NCBI GenBank assembly: GCA_021850555.1
Contig: JAJZLX010000590.1
Location: 1 to 5,357, forward strand
DNA from: Pseudomonadota bacterium
GTDB lineage: Bacteria > Pseudomonadota > Gammaproteobacteria > Steroidobacterales > Steroidobacteraceae
Direction: 5' to 3'
Length of the DNA: 5,357 bases
The notes below the pieces were generated by a model. The model saw nothing but the letters and a program-made list of their open reading frames with translations. It had not been told where the DNA came from and did no database searches. Shown here one piece after another: positions 3-5,357 of the stretch (within the stretch, counting starts at the first letter, position 1; each line of letters begins with the position of its first letter). Position numbers and translations under genes: made by a program.

Positions 3-821
3 CGCTTCAAGAACAAGCTGGTGAGCCTGGACTCCTCGGTGATCGATCTGTGCCTTTCGATGTACGACTGGGCGAAGTTTCGCACCACCAAGGGGGCGAT
101 CAAGCTGCACCTGCTGCTCGATCACGATGGCTACTTGCCCGGTTTTGCGGTGATCACGACGGGCAAAGTTCACGACGTGACGGTGGCGAAGACGCTGAAA
201 TTGCAGCCCGGAACAATCATCGTGGATGACCGGGGGTACAACGACTATGAGCTCTTTGGCCGCTGGACGGATGAGGGGGTGTATTTCGTCACGCGTCTGA
301 AGGACAACGCCGTGTATCGGGTCGTGAAGAATCTGCCTGTTCCCCGTGCGTCCAATAGCAACGTGTGCAAGGACCAGGTGATTCGCTTCCGCGGCCCGCA
401 GGCGAGGAAGAAGTGTCCCCATGAGCTTCGACTGGTGAGCTTCTATGATGAGGAGCAGAAGCGGGAGTTTCAGTTCCTGACGAACAACTTCCGGCTCGCC
501 GCCAAGACCATCGCCGCGATCTATAAGGACCGCTGGGCCGTCGAACTTTTTTTCAAAGCGCTGAAGCAAAATCTGAAGATCAAGACCTTCGTGGGCACAT
601 CCCCGACGGCGGTGAAGACCCAGGTGTGGACCGCGTTGATCACGATGCTGATGCTGCGATTGATGCAGCTGAAGTCGCGCTGGGGCTGGTCGATGTCTAA
701 TCTGGTGGCACTGCTGCGCATGAACCTGTTCACGCACCGGGAGCTGTGGGCCTGGCTCGACAATCCATTCGCCGTGCCGCCCGATCCGCCAGGACCCGAG
801 CAAGTGATCATGGCATTTTGA
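3..821 (+). CDS. IS4-family DDE transposase, N-terminus outside window
   Basis: This enzyme cuts and joins the ends of its insertion sequence. The frame is open from the first complete codon at base 3 and 272 residues are visible. GTG at 21 is an internal codon rather than the start, because the conserved block RFKNKLVSLDS runs across it. Counting from that GTG codon, the first catalytic Asp is residue 4 (SLDSSV). The second is about residue 70, in VDDRGYNDYEL. The Glu is residue 175, within the IS4 signature Y-(2)-R-(3)-E-(6)-K at Y168, R171, E175 and K182. Family members are usually about 350-450 residues, so roughly 100 or more N-terminal residues are missing only because of the window edge. 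The C-terminus is complete and there is no frameshift or internal stop, so the copy could be active if its left part is intact. Confidence 0.9.
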   Translation, partial: RFKNKLVSLDSSVIDLCLSMYDWAKFRTTKGAIKLHLLLDHDGYLPGFAVITTGKVHDVTVAKTLKLQPGTIIVDDRGYNDYELFGRWTDEGVYFVTRLKDNAVYRVVKNLPVPRASNSNVCKDQVIRFRGPQARKKCPHELRLVSFYDEEQKREFQFLTNNFRLAAKTIAAIYKDRWAVELFFKALKQNLKIKTFVGTSPTAVKTQVWTALITMLMLRLMQLKSRWGWSMSNLVALLRMNLFTHRELWAWLDNPFAVPPDPPGPEQVIMAF

Positions 822-1141: not shown

Positions 1142-2167
1142 CTATCGCACGAGCGGCCATTCCTTTCCTCGGGGCTTGTAGATCCGATTGATCAGTACCG
1201 CTGCGTTCTGCTCTTTTTCCGTGCGTGGTGGTGACATTGCAAGTAGGAATCTCCTCACGCGCCCAGCGAGCTCGGGCTGGCCCTGCCGTTCTAAAATCTC
1301 GGCGGCCGCCAACCATCCACTTTCGACGATGCGTCGCGTCAGTCTGATCTTCCGCTTTCCAGGCTCGATGAGCAAATTGCCCTTCAGGAGTTCCGCACTG
1401 ACAGCCGCAACCTGCTCACGCATGTGTGTCGAGGTACCACGCTCATGTGCTCGGTATATTCCGTCGGGCTTGCGGTCACGAGCCTGTCCGCGCACCGCCC
1501 GCTCCGTGGCATTCGCAGAGATGCCTTGATCGCGCAGATATCGCGCGAATCCGCGTCGCCACTCGCGCAAGGTAGCTTTTCGGATATTCAGGCGCTCACC
1601 CCGTTCGCTCATCGCTTTGACGACCAGGTGGACGTGGGGATGTGGCTCATCGGTATGAAGCGCCAGGGCATAGCGATGCCTTAGGGCGAATTCCTCCCGT
1701 GCGAAATTGCGCGTCGCCTCCAGCACCTCATTCGCCGGAGTCCCAGGCGGCATTGAGAGCATGATTTTGTGGACCAATTTCGGCGCGCGCCCTCTTCCAG
1801 CAGATAGCCGGCTGTCCCGCCGATCCTGATCAAGATCGAGGTCCCAGTTCTCAACGAGCTGCTGTCCAGCGTCCCGTCCTTGCAGGCGGTCGCCGTCGTC
1901 GGTCTCCAATTCCAGGTTGCCTTGCCGGCCAATGTAGTTCAGGTGCCGCGCGACGGATCGCAGGTTATTGCTGTCCTTTGCCAGCACCTTGACCATCACC
2001 TCGGGTGTCCGCCGCACTGTGCGGCCGATCAGCGCCACTTCCTCGGGCGACAATCGGTCTCGCTGCCCAGGACCGCGCCGCGCGAAGCTACCGATGTCCA
2101 AGAGGAGACGACCCTCGAACGGACTAATCCGCAGATTCCGCATGTCCGGACACCCAGCTCGCGGCAT
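1142..2167 (-). CDS. MOBP-type relaxase (MobA/VirD2-like mobilization nuclease)
   Basis: This predicted enzyme nicks one strand at the oriT nic site, stays linked to the 5' end through a tyrosine, and pilots the strand into the recipient. The relaxase domain spans about residues 55-215 of 341. Tyr78 in HLNYIGRQG is the likely catalytic tyrosine. The metal-binding triad HTDEPHPHVH lies at 171-180 (H171, D173, H176, H178, H180), matching the HxDxxHxHxH motif of MOBP enzymes. The remaining C-terminus is basic and has no recognisable helicase or primase domain, so this is a compact relaxase rather than a large fused one. It overlaps the end of mobC by 44 bp if ATG 2167 is the start, or 20 bp if the in-frame ATG at 2143 is used. 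Both have weak ribosome sites, which points to translational coupling. The choice between starts is open; the class assignment is firm. Confidence 0.9.
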   Translation of the reverse strand: MPRAGCPDMRNLRISPFEGRLLLDIGSFARRGPGQRDRLSPEEVALIGRTVRRTPEVMVKVLAKDSNNLRSVARHLNYIGRQGNLELETDDGDRLQGRDAGQQLVENWDLDLDQDRRDSRLSAGRGRAPKLVHKIMLSMPPGTPANEVLEATRNFAREEFALRHRYALALHTDEPHPHVHLVVKAMSERGERLNIRKATLREWRRGFARYLRDQGISANATERAVRGQARDRKPDGIYRAHERGTSTHMREQVAAVSAELLKGNLLIEPGKRKIRLTRRIVESGWLAAAEILERQGQPELAGRVRRFLLAMSPPRTEKEQNAAVLINRIYKPRGKEWPLVR

Positions 2168-2717
2168 TCACCTTGATCAGGTTCTTCGTGTGATCGCGCA
2201 GGGCCTCGCAGATCTTGAGGATGGCCCGGAACTCGTCGTGGCCCACTCCCCGCATGTGAGCACCCTGATTCGCAGCTCGGGCAATTTGGTTCAGGTTGCG
2301 TCCGATGGCGCCCAGTTCGCTGACCGCCCCCTTCAACGCGATCAGCTCTTCCTTTGGCAACGGAGCGAGCAAGCGCAGGTGCGAGCGCACCAGCACAGAA
2401 ACGTACGTCGCTGAGGCCATACCCCGCGCCGCCGCTCGCTCGTGCAGGAGCAGCCGGTCCTCCGCCGATAGCCTCATGTACAGACCGGAACCTGGCGTAC
2501 GGCGCATCGAGCATCGCCCACGGACAGCCGCAATCAGCGCACCATCGTGGCGTCCAGGTCGGGCTTCCGATTCGTCGGTCTGCAGCGCTTTTAGGATCAG
2601 TTGCCGCAGCCAGATCGACTCCGTCAAGAGCCGCTCCCGAGTCACCTCCGCGACGCGCGCCTTGGTCTCAGGTGTTACTCGTGTCCGCAGAATTTCTGTT
2701 GCACCCACAGGCCACAA
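2124..2717 (-). CDS. mobC: MobC-like relaxosome accessory protein
   Basis: MobC-family proteins bind oriT, help open it and load the relaxase. The 197-residue product has a C-terminal MobC block at about residues 125-185, marked by ELIALKGAVSELGAIGRNL followed by NQIARAANQG. Two ribbon-helix-helix-like segments precede it: TEILRTRVTPETK with its helices at about 7-45, and LYMRLSAEDR with its helices at about 79-115. The start is uncertain: the longest frame begins with TTG at 2717, inside a palindrome, and GTG at 2708 is an alternative. An in-frame TAG at 2742-2744 stops any longer version, and neither start has a clear ribosome site. The gene overlaps the relaxase gene and they form one operon. 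Its RHH fold and the palindrome at its start suggest autoregulation; this is inferred. Confidence 0.85.
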   Translation of the reverse strand: MWPVGATEILRTRVTPETKARVAEVTRERLLTESIWLRQLILKALQTDESEARPGRHDGALIAAVRGRCSMRRTPGSGLYMRLSAEDRLLLHERAAARGMASATYVSVLVRSHLRLLAPLPKEELIALKGAVSELGAIGRNLNQIARAANQGAHMRGVGHDEFRAILKICEALRDHTKNLIKVNAASWVSGHAESAD

Positions 2718-2724
2718 TGTGGCC
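2710..2724. promoter_or_regulatory. Palindrome GGCCACA-A-TGTGGCC over the mobC start, likely MobC operator
   Basis: A perfect 7-bp inverted repeat with a single central base covers the TTG start candidate of mobC and lies 19 bp left of the nic core. RHH proteins bind short palindromes as dimers, so this is a good candidate for MobC binding, both to assemble the relaxosome and to repress its own operon. The role is inferred. Confidence 0.5.
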
Positions 2725-2773
2725 CAAAAGTCGCTGCATAGCTATCCTGCATTTCACCGGAAATTCGGCGAAA
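2710..2773 (+). other. oriT: Candidate origin of transfer (oriT), MOBP/IncP-like
   Basis: CTATCCTGC at 2742-2750 matches the MOBP nic core YATCCTG^Y known from RP4 and the Ti plasmid borders, placing the nick between G2749 and C2750 on the plus strand. It lies just upstream of mobC and the relaxase, where such sites usually sit. An inverted repeat GGCCACA-A-TGTGGCC (2710-2724) lies to its left, and an imperfect one (TTTCACCG / CGGCGAAA, 2752-2759 and 2766-2773) starts two bases after the nick. ATAGCTAT (2738-2745) overlaps the core as a small palindrome. With this polarity, DNA right of the nic is transferred first and the mob genes last. The motif and the context agree, but cleavage is not shown. 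Confidence 0.7.
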
Positions 2774-2881
2774 CTCACCACGTGCCGTCCGCCCGCCATC
2801 CCGATTGCGCTCGCTGGAAGCCCGCACTGAGACCACCAGCGCCCCACCCATCGGTCCGTTTGCCGCTCGCCACACCGCCCC
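2774..2881. other. Short gene-free stretch between oriT and the DUF932 terminator
   Basis: About 108 bp of GC-rich sequence. Minus-strand frames that cross it are out of register with mobC and show no domain. I see no strong sigma70-type promoter here for the mob operon. Confidence 0.4.
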
Positions 2882-2932: not shown

Positions 2933-3757
2933 TCAGCTGGCGAGCACCTCGGCCGCTATCTCCCAGAGCGCGCTGTTGATCCGCACGTCCTCCCGGATCG
3001 AGGTGATCCCTCGGGTCCGCACCAGCCGTCCACTGGGGGAGCGCCGCAGCAAACCACCCCGCAGGAGGTTCTCCTGAACCCGGTTCAGCGTGCGCCAAAG
3101 GTCCTCCCCGGCGTCCTCGCTGCGTCGGCAACCAAGGAGAGCGGGTGCCGCCATGCCGGCCTCGGCGGGCTCTGGATACCGCAGGGCGAGTGCTCGCTCG
3201 GCGAAGCGGATCCGTTCCTCCGGGGCGAGTTCGCGTCGCTCCATGCGCTCGACCTGGGCGGCCAGGATCTCGAACCTCGCGGAGATTGCGAGCGCGTGCG
3301 CCACCACGTCGTCGACGATGTTCCCCCGGTGAGCCACGCTGAACGTCGGGAACGCCCCATGGGAGACGATCAACCCATTGGTGCACACCACCCGGAAGAG
3401 CCCCACCTTGAGCTGATACGCGCTCGTGCCGTTATGACTGTTCAGGAACAGGATCTCCGCCACCGAGTCGCGTAGCTGCACGGTCTCGGTCCGCCGCCGA
3501 AGCCGGATCACGTGCCGCGCGTGCAGCACACTCGCCGAACGGGTCCGCGCCTGGCGCGCATCGACCGGCACGAACCCGGCCGCGATGAGTCCCTCGAGCA
3601 CACGCGCGCTCGGGATGAACGTGTAACGGGCACTGCGCTCGCCGTCGGCCGACGGGGCGAATACCGCCGGGGCTCGCGCCTGAAGGGACTCGAGGGACAG
3701 TGCGCGGCCAAATAGCTGGTCGTGACCCACGAACGAGAGATCAGTGGAGGTGCTCAT
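2933..3757 (-). CDS. DUF932 family protein (plasmid/phage-like), function unknown
   Basis: The 274-residue product matches DUF932, a family common on plasmids, phages and integrative elements whose biochemical role is not known. Recognisable parts are the central block FLNSHNGTSAYQLKVGLFRV followed by VCTNGLIVSHG (about residues 104-134), and the C-terminal TRGITSIREDVRINSALWEI (about 248-267). No signal peptide or membrane segment is visible. I chose ATG at 3757, which has GAGG eight bases upstream. The frame stays open for 90 more codons, but that extension translates the 8-bp tandem repeat and looks non-coding. The gene has its own terminator and a leader of about 200 bp, so it is probably a single-gene unit. 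Under the proposed oriT polarity it sits in the leading region, and the transferred strand is its template. Confidence 0.85.
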   Translation of the reverse strand: MSTSTDLSFVGHDQLFGRALSLESLQARAPAVFAPSADGERSARYTFIPSARVLEGLIAAGFVPVDARQARTRSASVLHARHVIRLRRRTETVQLRDSVAEILFLNSHNGTSAYQLKVGLFRVVCTNGLIVSHGAFPTFSVAHRGNIVDDVVAHALAISARFEILAAQVERMERRELAPEERIRFAERALALRYPEPAEAGMAAPALLGCRRSEDAGEDLWRTLNRVQENLLRGGLLRRSPSGRLVRTRGITSIREDVRINSALWEIAAEVLAS

Positions 3758-3965
3758 GATGGAATCCTCGGAACGATCTTGGGCGGGATTGCCCGCAGTC
3801 CCGGGATCGCGGCGCGCACAGCCGTCCAGCGGGCCGCCAGGGTCGTGGAATAAATGGAGGGGACCCGCGTCCGCGCGGGGCGGCGGCCGTTTATGCCGCG
3901 AAAGCCCGCCGCGGCACACTTGACGGCGCGCACGCCGCGATACACTGAAGCGATTCAGGCATCCC
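3758..3965 (-). other. Long GC-rich leader upstream of the DUF932 gene
   Basis: About 208 bp precede the start codon with no supportable gene. On the minus strand, GAGG lies eight bases before ATG 3757, and a small hairpin GCGGG-CAAT-CCCGC (3796-3783) lies about 25 bases before it. Another short stem, GCGGC/GCCGC, is at 3883-3899. I see no good sigma70 promoter on the minus strand; CATAAA near 3890-3895 lacks a matching -35 box. The leader may be structured, or transcription may start upstream of the tandem repeat. Confidence 0.4.
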
Positions 3966-4005
3966 GCCCTCCTGCCCTCCTGCCCTCCTGCCCTCCTGCC
4001 CTCCT
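3966..4005. repeat. Five tandem copies of GCCCTCCT (AGGAGGGC on minus strand)
   Basis: Five perfect, uninterrupted 8-bp units. The minus strand carries five GGG runs separated by CAGGA, which fits the pattern for an intramolecular G-quadruplex with 5-base loops. It lies about 210 bp upstream of the DUF932 start. In frame it would encode a QEGRRAGG-type repetitive peptide, which I treat as non-coding. Perfect identity between units points to slippage or recent expansion. Confidence 0.9.
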
Positions 4006-4237
4006 GTCTCCGGGCTCCCGCCACCACAATTGTCCGGATGGAGGACCGCCGAATTGATCGTGTGCAAGGACAGCACGTGACCGTGCGAGCTGTAGCGCCG
4101 ACTCAAATCTGAGGACGGACGGGTTACGCGAAGCGAACACTGGTGCGGTCGCGAAACCCGTAATCGGGCGCCATCGCACCTCCGCCTATGTCAGGAACTC
4201 CCAAACGGGACGTCAACTCCCGCGCGAGCGCAACGCA
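4006..4237. other. Gene-free region between the tandem repeat and the XRE gene
   Basis: About 230 bp with no supportable gene on either strand. Its one clear structure is the inverted repeat at 4119-4161. No terminator with a T-tract follows the XRE stop codon at 4238, so XRE transcription could continue leftward towards the DUF932 leader. Confidence 0.4.
4119..4161. repeat. Imperfect 13-bp inverted repeat
   Basis: ACGGGTTACGCGA (4119-4131) and TCGCGAAACCCGT (4149-4161) pair at 12 of 13 positions around a 17-base centre. No T-tract follows on either strand, so it does not look like an intrinsic terminator. It could be a binding or recombination site of the element, or an RNA structure in the 3' part of the XRE transcript. 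The function is unknown. Confidence 0.7.
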
Positions 4238-4474
4238 CTACGCGCCGCGGCGGCGTTCCGCCCCCGCGATCAGTTCTGAGAGCTCAACCTTGAGCGGCTC
4301 GATGAGAAGCTGCAGCAGCAATACTGATGGATTGTACTCGCCGCGCTCCAACCGCCCGACGACGTTCGGATGCACGTCGGCTTCATGGGCCAAGGCGATT
4401 TGACTGAACCCGAGTGCCTTACGCCGGTCGCGTACTTCCTCACCCAGGCAACGCAGAAACGGCTTCCGGACCAT
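4238..4474 (-). CDS. Small XRE-family HTH transcriptional regulator
   Basis: The 78-residue protein is essentially one Cro/C1-type helix-turn-helix domain. RRKALGFSQIALAHEADVHP (about 17-36) contains the first helices and the start of the HTH, VVGRLERGEYNPSVLLLQLL (38-57) the recognition helix and its follower, and LKVELSELIAG closes the domain. It has no sensor or peptidase domain, as in compact repressors of mobile elements and toxin-antitoxin loci, but no toxin partner is visible next to it. ATG at 4474 has GAGG nine bases upstream (4487-4484). The gene is divergent from the small-protein/sigma operon and shares its promoter zone, so repression of both itself and that operon is likely. A perfect hairpin surrounds its start codon. 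Confidence 0.88.
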   Translation of the reverse strand: MVRKPFLRCLGEEVRDRRKALGFSQIALAHEADVHPNVVGRLERGEYNPSVLLLQLLIEPLKVELSELIAGAERRRGA

Positions 4475-4570: not shown

Positions 4571-4849
4571 ATGGCGCATCGGCGTGCTCAAGCCCGGCGA
4601 GGCGATCGCTTCCGGCGAGACAGCGGTGTGTCTCGCTTAAGTTCGACGAGGGATGATTCTCTCGGCCGATTTTCTGATGCGCTAGCACTGATCGCTGTAG
4701 CGGAATGCTCCTTGGCTTCAAAGGAACTCCCCGGAACGGGGGACGAAGTAGCTGCCCTTCGTTACGGTCTCTCGCTCCTTCGGGCCGCCTACGACGACCT
4801 CGATCTTGCCTCCGGGCAATCGAGACGAAAGCCCCGAGCACTGCGATGA
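4571..4849 (+). CDS. Small protein of unknown function upstream of the ECF sigma gene
   Basis: I do not recognise this 92-residue product. Its first 35 residues are basic and probably flexible (RRAQARRGDRFRR). The rest looks helical: LGRFSDALALIAVAECSLAS, then a linker ELPGTGDEV, then AALRYGLSLLRAAYDDLDLA, a likely two-helix bundle, with a basic tail RRKPRALR. No signal peptide or obvious membrane span is visible. ATG 4571 is the only in-frame ATG downstream of the predicted transcription start; GGAGG precedes it at an unusually short 2-base gap. Earlier in-frame starts (TTG 4502, ATG 4520) lie in the promoter, so I rejected them. GTG 4628 is another option. The sigma gene begins 52 bp after its stop, so the two are probably co-transcribed. 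A role in modulating the sigma factor is possible but only a guess. Confidence 0.6.
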   Translation: MAHRRAQARRGDRFRRDSGVSRLSSTRDDSLGRFSDALALIAVAECSLASKELPGTGDEVAALRYGLSLLRAAYDDLDLASGQSRRKPRALR

Positions 4850-4911
4850 CCCGGATCCGCTCCCACGGCGCACCGCACCTGGATTGCCAGGAGATGCCCT
4901 CATGCCCCTAA
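4846..4911 (+). CDS. Possible 21-codon linking ORF before the sigma gene
   Basis: ATG at 4846 overlaps the stop of the preceding gene as ATGA. The frame ends with TAA at 4909-4911, ten bases into the sigma-factor gene. It could pass ribosomes from the small-protein gene to the sigma gene. The peptide shows no recognisable motif and has no ribosome site of its own, so it may be a chance ORF. Confidence 0.25.
   Translation: MTRIRSHGAPHLDCQEMPSCP
4889..4893 (+). promoter_or_regulatory. Ribosome binding site AGGAG of the sigma gene
   Basis: AGGAG lies eight bases before ATG 4902. It decides the start in favour of 4902 over the later in-frame GTG at 4986, which has no such site. Confidence 0.7.
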
Positions 4912-5357
4912 CCCTCGCGTCAGCAGGACGCCCGCGCGCACCCGTACCGGTCACCCCAGCCTCCCCAGACCCTCGAGTCCCGGCGGTGTCGGCGAGTGCG
5001 CTCTCGGACGCTGACCACCGGCAGCGGCGCGCCCTGCTGCGCTTCCTCACCCACCGGACCGGCTCGCGGGAGGAAGCCGAGGACATCCTCCAGGATGCGT
5101 ACGCGCGGATCCTCGCCGTCGTTCATCCCGGGGAGATCGACACGCTCGATCGGTACCTGTGGCGCGCCGCAATGAACGTCATGACCGATCACGCGCGGGC
5201 GCGTCAGCGGCGCGTGCTCTTGACCGACGCGCTTACCGTGCGCACTGAACAGGCGGCACCGTCGGCGGAGATCGTGGCCGATGCTCAGGAGCGCCTGGCG
5301 CTGACGGGTGCCGCGGTGAACGCATTGCCGCCGAGGTGCGCCGAAGCATTCCACCTT
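4902..5357 (+). CDS. FecI-like ECF sigma-70 factor, C-terminus outside window
   Basis: ECF sigma factors direct RNA polymerase to a small set of promoters, usually under control of a linked anti-sigma factor. The 152 visible residues contain sigma region 2 at about 42-105: RRALLRFLTHRTGS, EEAEDILQDAYARIL (the DxxQDxxxR core) and RYLWRAAMNVMTDHARARQRR-type region 2.3-2.4. Region 4 is entered at about 131 with ALTGAAVNALPPRCAEAFHL, as in FecI-like proteins, and its DNA-binding helices lie beyond base 5357. The frame is open to the window edge. An unusual proline- and alanine-rich stretch of about 30 residues (PRAPVPVTPASPDPRVPAVS) precedes region 2. The strong ribosome site supports ATG 4902 despite this tail. 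The gene follows a small unknown protein and is divergent from an XRE repressor; a FecR-type anti-sigma gene might follow but is not in view. Confidence 0.85.
   Translation, partial: MPLTLASAGRPRAPVPVTPASPDPRVPAVSASALSDADHRQRRALLRFLTHRTGSREEAEDILQDAYARILAVVHPGEIDTLDRYLWRAAMNVMTDHARARQRRVLLTDALTVRTEQAAPSAEIVADAQERLALTGAAVNALPPRCAEAFHL

Follow-up and report, generated by a model that had tools for sequence, protein, structure and literature searches.

A probable MOBP-type origin of transfer upstream of a mobC–relaxase operon in a Steroidobacteraceae contig

The stretch of DNA analysed here (the window; 5,357 nucleotides of contig JAJZLX010000590.1 from a bacterium of the Steroidobacteraceae) carries, ahead of a mobC–relaxase operon and in its regulatory region, an eight-base sequence that we assign with considerable confidence, from its letters, position and conservation, as the nick-site (nic) core of a MOBP-type origin of transfer (oriT), at which the plus strand would be nicked. 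Such an oriT would be of an already known, ordinary type, and an earlier note that had proposed it from the letters of the window was very probably right in substance. The features on which the assignment turns are the following.

Positions 2743..2750, plus strand: MOBP-type nic core TATCCTG^C, from consensus match and conservation; predicted nick between 2749 and 2750, plus strand
Positions 2705..2776, plus strand: proposed minimal oriT region, comprising nic, the spacer and the inverted repeats on either side, from alignment A3 and DNA folding, within limits of our own choosing
Positions 2124..2708, minus strand: mobC, encoding a NikA/MobC-like relaxosome accessory protein of 194 aa, from Pfam; GTG 2708 taken as start by homology
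Positions 1142..2143, minus strand: gene for a MOBP (MobP1-like) relaxase of 333 aa, from Pfam Relaxase; ATG 2143 taken as start, as in P0001

The predicted nic core and the operon that it precedes

The letters CTATCCTGC stand at 2742–2750 on the plus strand, where the earlier note had placed them, and its statement that they fit the MOBP nic consensus base for base is confirmed: TATCCTGC (2743–2750) is a YATCCTGY, and the only one in the window when both strands are scanned. According to the available part of the source, (C/T)ATCCTG(C/T) is a nick-site consensus of which ATCCTG is required for cleavage by RP4 TraI and VirD2 (PMC3772185), and TATCCTGC agrees with this nick core of MOBP-type oriTs at each position. 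Since YATCCTGY is expected 0.56 times per window, and at least one is present in 81 of 200 shuffled windows, the claim must rest on position and conservation. The proposed oriT region (2705..2776) folds as DNA with a z of −2.14, an equally good fold being reached in 8 of 200 shuffles, and scans of the window with Rfam (at gathering scores) and for tRNA gave no matches.

The product of mobC passes the Pfam cut-offs both of the NikA-like family (32.5 bits, cut-off 27) and of MobC (26.3 bits, cut-off 23.2). Because its homologues mostly start with MGATE or similar (some being called with a longer start), mobC probably begins at GTG 2708, which puts 41 nt between the start codon and the predicted nick at 2749/2750; the distance of 25 bp given in the earlier note holds only for a start at TTG 2717. 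The relaxase gene overlaps the end of mobC by 20 nt and its product is matched by Pfam Relaxase at 49.7 bits (cut-off 24.6). Tyr70 and the stretch HTDEPHPHxH are invariant in 24 close relaxase relatives (alignment A1), and a set of 11 aligned relaxases (alignment A4), seven of plasmid origin, retains Tyr70, H163, H170 and H172 without exception; D165 is invariant in A1 and nearly so in A4. The conserved tyrosine and the histidine motif have catalytic roles in relaxases. The structure model of the relaxase is poor (mean pLDDT 56.7), and a sequence search of solved structures at E ≤ 0.01 gave no match. The mob family has many public relatives, at least 7361 relaxase homologues at E ≤ 1e-20 being found among 8000 candidates scored; a scan of viral contigs with MobC found no relatives, and in a literature search naming Steroidobacter that word was absent among the matches listed.

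Conservation of the core upstream of mobC

A profile of 24 relaxases led to 55 loci in genome contigs, spanning named Steroidobacter, Povalibacter and Peristeroidobacter as well as unclassified gammaproteobacterial metagenome-assembled genomes. mobC was located by tblastn in 46 of these loci (nine being without it) and a 5' anchor was assigned in 41 (five more being without one); with six distant loci (L042 and L044–L048) left out of the anchored set, 35 make up the family count. ATCCTG is present at the homologous place, on the strand opposite mobC, in 32 of the 35, as the full YATCCTGY in 28 and as AATCCTGC in four, and lies 65–68 nt before a mobC codon, or 91 nt in L018, where the anchor is misplaced. 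The distant loci have the core in five of six cases, at different spacings. Among further copies found in whole genomes the core is present in four of five, three of them with the full YATCCTGY; this count omits L065 (which is locus L035) and L070 (which is without mobC). Eight plasmid regions were hand-picked from 29 + 60 listed matches (2848 records matched in one search), and all seven with enough sequence have the core upstream of mobC, six as TATCCTGC and one (L061) as AATCCTGC, the eighth (L058) being left out since its stretch extends no more than 55 bases upstream of mobC. In PLSDB, L056 is typed as non-mobilizable and the other six as MOBP. According to the earlier note, its proposal would fail if TATCCTGC were not conserved ahead of mobC orthologues, and on these three counts (family loci, extra copies and plasmid regions) the proposal stands.

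The alignment of regions upstream of mobC, a check that the earlier note had called for, points the same way. When 40 such regions (the window, 34 loci and five extra copies) were aligned with gaps, the motif not being a selection criterion and L009 being omitted for insufficient upstream sequence, the best 8-column block was GCAGGATA, the reverse complement of the core. When the core is excluded, clustering at 70% identity splits the 33 core-bearing regions into 16 groups, with a median identity of 52% to the window, so that near-identical copies are not the cause of the conserved block.

Several observations weigh against the assignment. The core is absent from three of the 35 family loci (L008, L019 and L043, of which L008 was scored as core-less though the 5' end of its mobC is unaligned) and from one extra copy, L067. 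Three of the core-bearing extra copies are interrupted, L068 and L069 (87% identical to each other) both by a stop inside mobC and L064 by a stop inside the relaxase gene, and some extra copies are therefore probably decaying. An earlier ungapped, anchor-based ranking of columns placed mobC coding blocks first, an effect due in part to spacing differences of a few bases, and BLASTN of 2705–2800 against plasmids returned a single match, with an E value of 0.8. Finally, the best NCBIfam match of the relaxase is MobP1 (NF041450) at 104.5 bits, under the curated cut-off of 200, and for this reason we call the enzyme MOBP and MobP1-like, not a member of MobP1; the earlier claim of a MOBP enzyme beside its expected site is supported by Relaxase and NikA/MobC domains above their Pfam cut-offs.

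Two of the core-less loci, L019 and L067 (G004:C27), have open relaxase and mobC frames and yet no ATCCTG at the expected place, which also speaks against the assignment; they may use another nick site or have a decayed oriT.

Host element and alternative readings

Beside the relaxase gene the window holds one further feature that bears on mobility.

Positions 3-821, plus strand: IS4-family transposase gene, cut by the left edge of the window, just downstream of the relaxase gene

This transposase gene, together with a Pfam scan of seven window frames that found no integrase or secretion gene, would suit an oriT whose element is no longer mobile, a reading compatible with the nic core assignment. 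We consider loss of mobility rather unlikely: mobC, the relaxase gene and the core are intact, and the window shows 5.4 kb only, whereas in relatives the coupling-protein and VirB4 genes lie about 2–21 kb from the relaxase copies having them. In eight related genomes, each chosen for holding a family locus, there are 23 matches to the relaxase, and seven of the eight genomes have a coupling protein and seven have VirB4, G007 having neither. Eight of the 23 relaxase copies have a type IV coupling protein (T4CP) gene about 2–12 kb off on the leading side (that to the right of the nick in the window), seven of these with VirB4 at about 11–21 kb, and the remaining copies have no transfer genes nearby or are on short contigs. 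The nearby T4CP and VirB4 genes indicate that some relaxase copies belong to elements with transfer genes; the proteins of the window are listed for a contig of 17,046 bases.

Lying upstream of mobC, the conserved block might instead serve to control the mobC operon, as promoter or operator, and be no nick site, and the in silico nick sites of PromA plasmids do overlap predicted −35 boxes, as described in the available part of PMC4175270. We hold this to be very improbable, given that the conserved letters are those of the MOBP nic core and are so in plasmids as well, where the core lies 45 to 108 nt from the annotated mobC start, a spread of distances that argues against a simple promoter element. 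The block may nevertheless have a double role, as nick site and as promoter or operator. Chance occurrence of YATCCTGY, for all its frequency in shuffled windows, can practically be dismissed, since the core recurs at the homologous place throughout most of the family and is the top block of the gapped alignment.

Inverted repeats around the predicted nick

The earlier note had also described inverted repeats on both sides of the nic core, and two can be named.

Positions 2710..2724: palindrome GGCCACA-a-TGTGGCC, directly upstream of the likely mobC start, from shuffles and pair counts and with a precedent in RA3
About positions 2752..2773: imperfect inverted repeat on the leading side of nic, from pair counts, with moderate support

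The palindrome has 7-bp arms and ends 25 nt before the nick, and none of 200 mononucleotide shuffles of the window scores as well. Across the aligned sequences 56% of its cells are paired, vs 20–43% when it is slid, with 4 of 500 shuffles as high; its covariation is matched by 14 of 500 shuffles and its pairs changed on both sides by 185 of 500. For the leading-side repeat 53% of cells are paired, vs 32–43% when slid, and shuffles as high number 2, 22 and 248 of 500. Kinship among the sequences can inflate the pair counts of both. Repeats at p ≤ 0.05 are found in the palindrome region in 11 of 33 sequences, abutting the nick in five and on the leading side in five. The palindrome and the leading-side repeat thus sustain the earlier description moderately, with less certainty than attaches to the core, and a third candidate has no such support: a hairpin of 3 bp right next to the nick (GCT-GCAT-AGC), considered as the recognition hairpin of the relaxase, was rejected, 443 of 500 shuffles being at least as paired, and this too counts against the assignment. 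Strong nick-abutting hairpins occur in the single sequences L040, L038 and L025.

RA3 offers a precedent, its MobC repressing the operon and binding a palindrome in the promoter region of mobC (PMC4175270, in the part available), and by analogy we propose that the palindrome at 2710–2724 may serve as a MobC operator or auxiliary binding site.

Proposed leading region and likely polarity of transfer

To the right of the nick the window contains three further genes.

Positions 2933..3757, minus strand: DUF932 gene (Pfam DUF932, 122.6 bits), ATG 3757 picked as start by inspection
Positions 4238-4474, minus strand: gene for a small HTH_3 protein
About positions 4806-5357, plus strand: start only of a gene for an ECF-like sigma factor, which reads away from oriT

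With a cut of the plus strand at 2749/2750, the right side would lead and the relaxase gene would enter last. Relaxase genes are typically found in the lagging region, and anti-defence genes of the leading region lie on one strand, the T-strand (PMC11541004, in the part available); such T-strand placement would here amount to reading toward oriT. DUF932 is absent from the main text of that paper, so far as available. The Pfam scan covered ten leading-side cluster representatives of the 19 clusters listed. Genes of the DUF932 cluster (13 loci, the window included) read toward oriT in 16 of 16 anchored copies, and so, in every anchored copy, do those for RadC (10 loci), a DNA methylase (six), an antirestriction protein (five) and LPD7 (seven). 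The sigma-factor cluster (five loci, the window included), with frames in four other family loci at a median distance to the mobC anchor of about 3.3 kb, reads away from oriT and so tells against this arrangement; an integrase cluster is of mixed orientation (four and one anchored copies), and three clusters with no Pfam match sit on the other strand and may be antisense frames. From these arrangements it is plausible that the plus strand would be transferred rightward with the DUF932 side first. The polarity put forward in the earlier note accordingly keeps the support of a lagging-side relaxase gene and of five leading-side families that read toward oriT, has the sigma-factor family against it, and is best taken as a deduction from gene order.

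A tandem array of the 8-base unit TCCTGCCC lies at 3962–4006, upstream of the DUF932 gene (5.6 copies, 97% matches).

From the sequence of the site, its conservation and position, and the families and orientation of the genes around it, we infer nicking, MobC binding, autorepression and transfer with a polarity, in the following manner. MobC would bind the palindrome at its own start, repress the mobC–relaxase operon and help to load the relaxase, whose Tyr70 would cut the plus strand between G2749 and C2750, the enzyme remaining attached to the 5' end so formed. The plus strand would then leave rightward through a type IV secretion system of the same element or of a helper, the DUF932 side first and the relaxase genes last. 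The result places a transfer origin, with its likely polarity, for a mob family with many public relatives, and is ordinary as conjugation biology.

oriT–mobC modules with no relaxase gene nearby

The pattern GCAGGATARSCNNNSGGC, searched in the eight related genomes, gave ten matches in six of them, its backward control giving none, and three of the matches (L071, L072 and L073) are not beside a relaxase gene. At L071 and L073 the core is followed by an open mobC, and the 5 kb fetched contain no match to the relaxase; a third module of core and open mobC (L074), found by the MobC profile, has no relaxase match nearby. L071/L077, L073/L078 and L074 each have a tyrosine integrase gene, about 0.4, 1.3 or 3.6 kb past mobC, and open copies of the family's relaxase gene are present in their genomes. 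Three other candidates were rejected: tblastn finds no mobC at L072, which may be a chance match, an apparent mobC without relaxase gene at G007:C12 lies at a contig end, and the mobC pieces at G001:C52 are fragments that no core precedes.

The name iOriT has been given to integrated elements that have an oriT and lack a relaxase gene (PMC11389934, in the part available), and small plasmids encoding a NikA accessory protein that enables mobilization are cited in the reference list of that paper. We tentatively suggest, while rating the idea a little short of probable, that L071/L077, L073/L078 and L074 are satellites, their own MobC marking the origin and the relaxase and secretion channel being borrowed from a resident element. 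By analogy, they look like an integrated counterpart of the NikA-encoding small plasmids, and may equally be deletion relics. The pattern GCAGGATARSCNNNSGGC serves as a search pattern for relaxase-less passengers of this mob family.

Comparison with known systems

The Variovorax plasmids NZ_LR594663 and NZ_LR594692 are among the best plasmid matches listed; they resemble the window in their relaxases (46% identical in alignment A4) and in having TATCCTGC upstream of mobC, and differ in their flanks and in having the core about 45 nt ahead of the annotated start of mobC, NZ_LR594663 being moreover typed as non-mobilizable by PLSDB. The E. coli plasmid NZ_CP039300, presumably IncX-like, shares the order mobC–relaxase and an ATCCTG core upstream, but its core is AATCCTGC and its relaxase is 32% identical. 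Plasmid pMNCK068 (L060), which we take to be PromA-like, has a relaxase only 34% identical to that of the window.

In general layout the window is like RA3 (IncU) and the PromA plasmids, in which mobC and the relaxase gene form a bicistronic operon with the oriT immediately ahead of it, and the MobC of the window fits their motif LxxugxNlNQiaxxLn except at one position (both according to the available part of PMC4175270). Unlike in these plasmids, the palindrome of the window is located at the start codon, and the relatives of the window are mostly in genome contigs. With the RP4 (IncP) oriT and the Ti VirD2 sites the window shares the ATCCTG core and the (C/T)ATCCTG(C/T) consensus (PMC3772185, in part); in RP4, however, a hairpin abuts the nick, whereas the clear palindrome of the window ends 25 nt before it.
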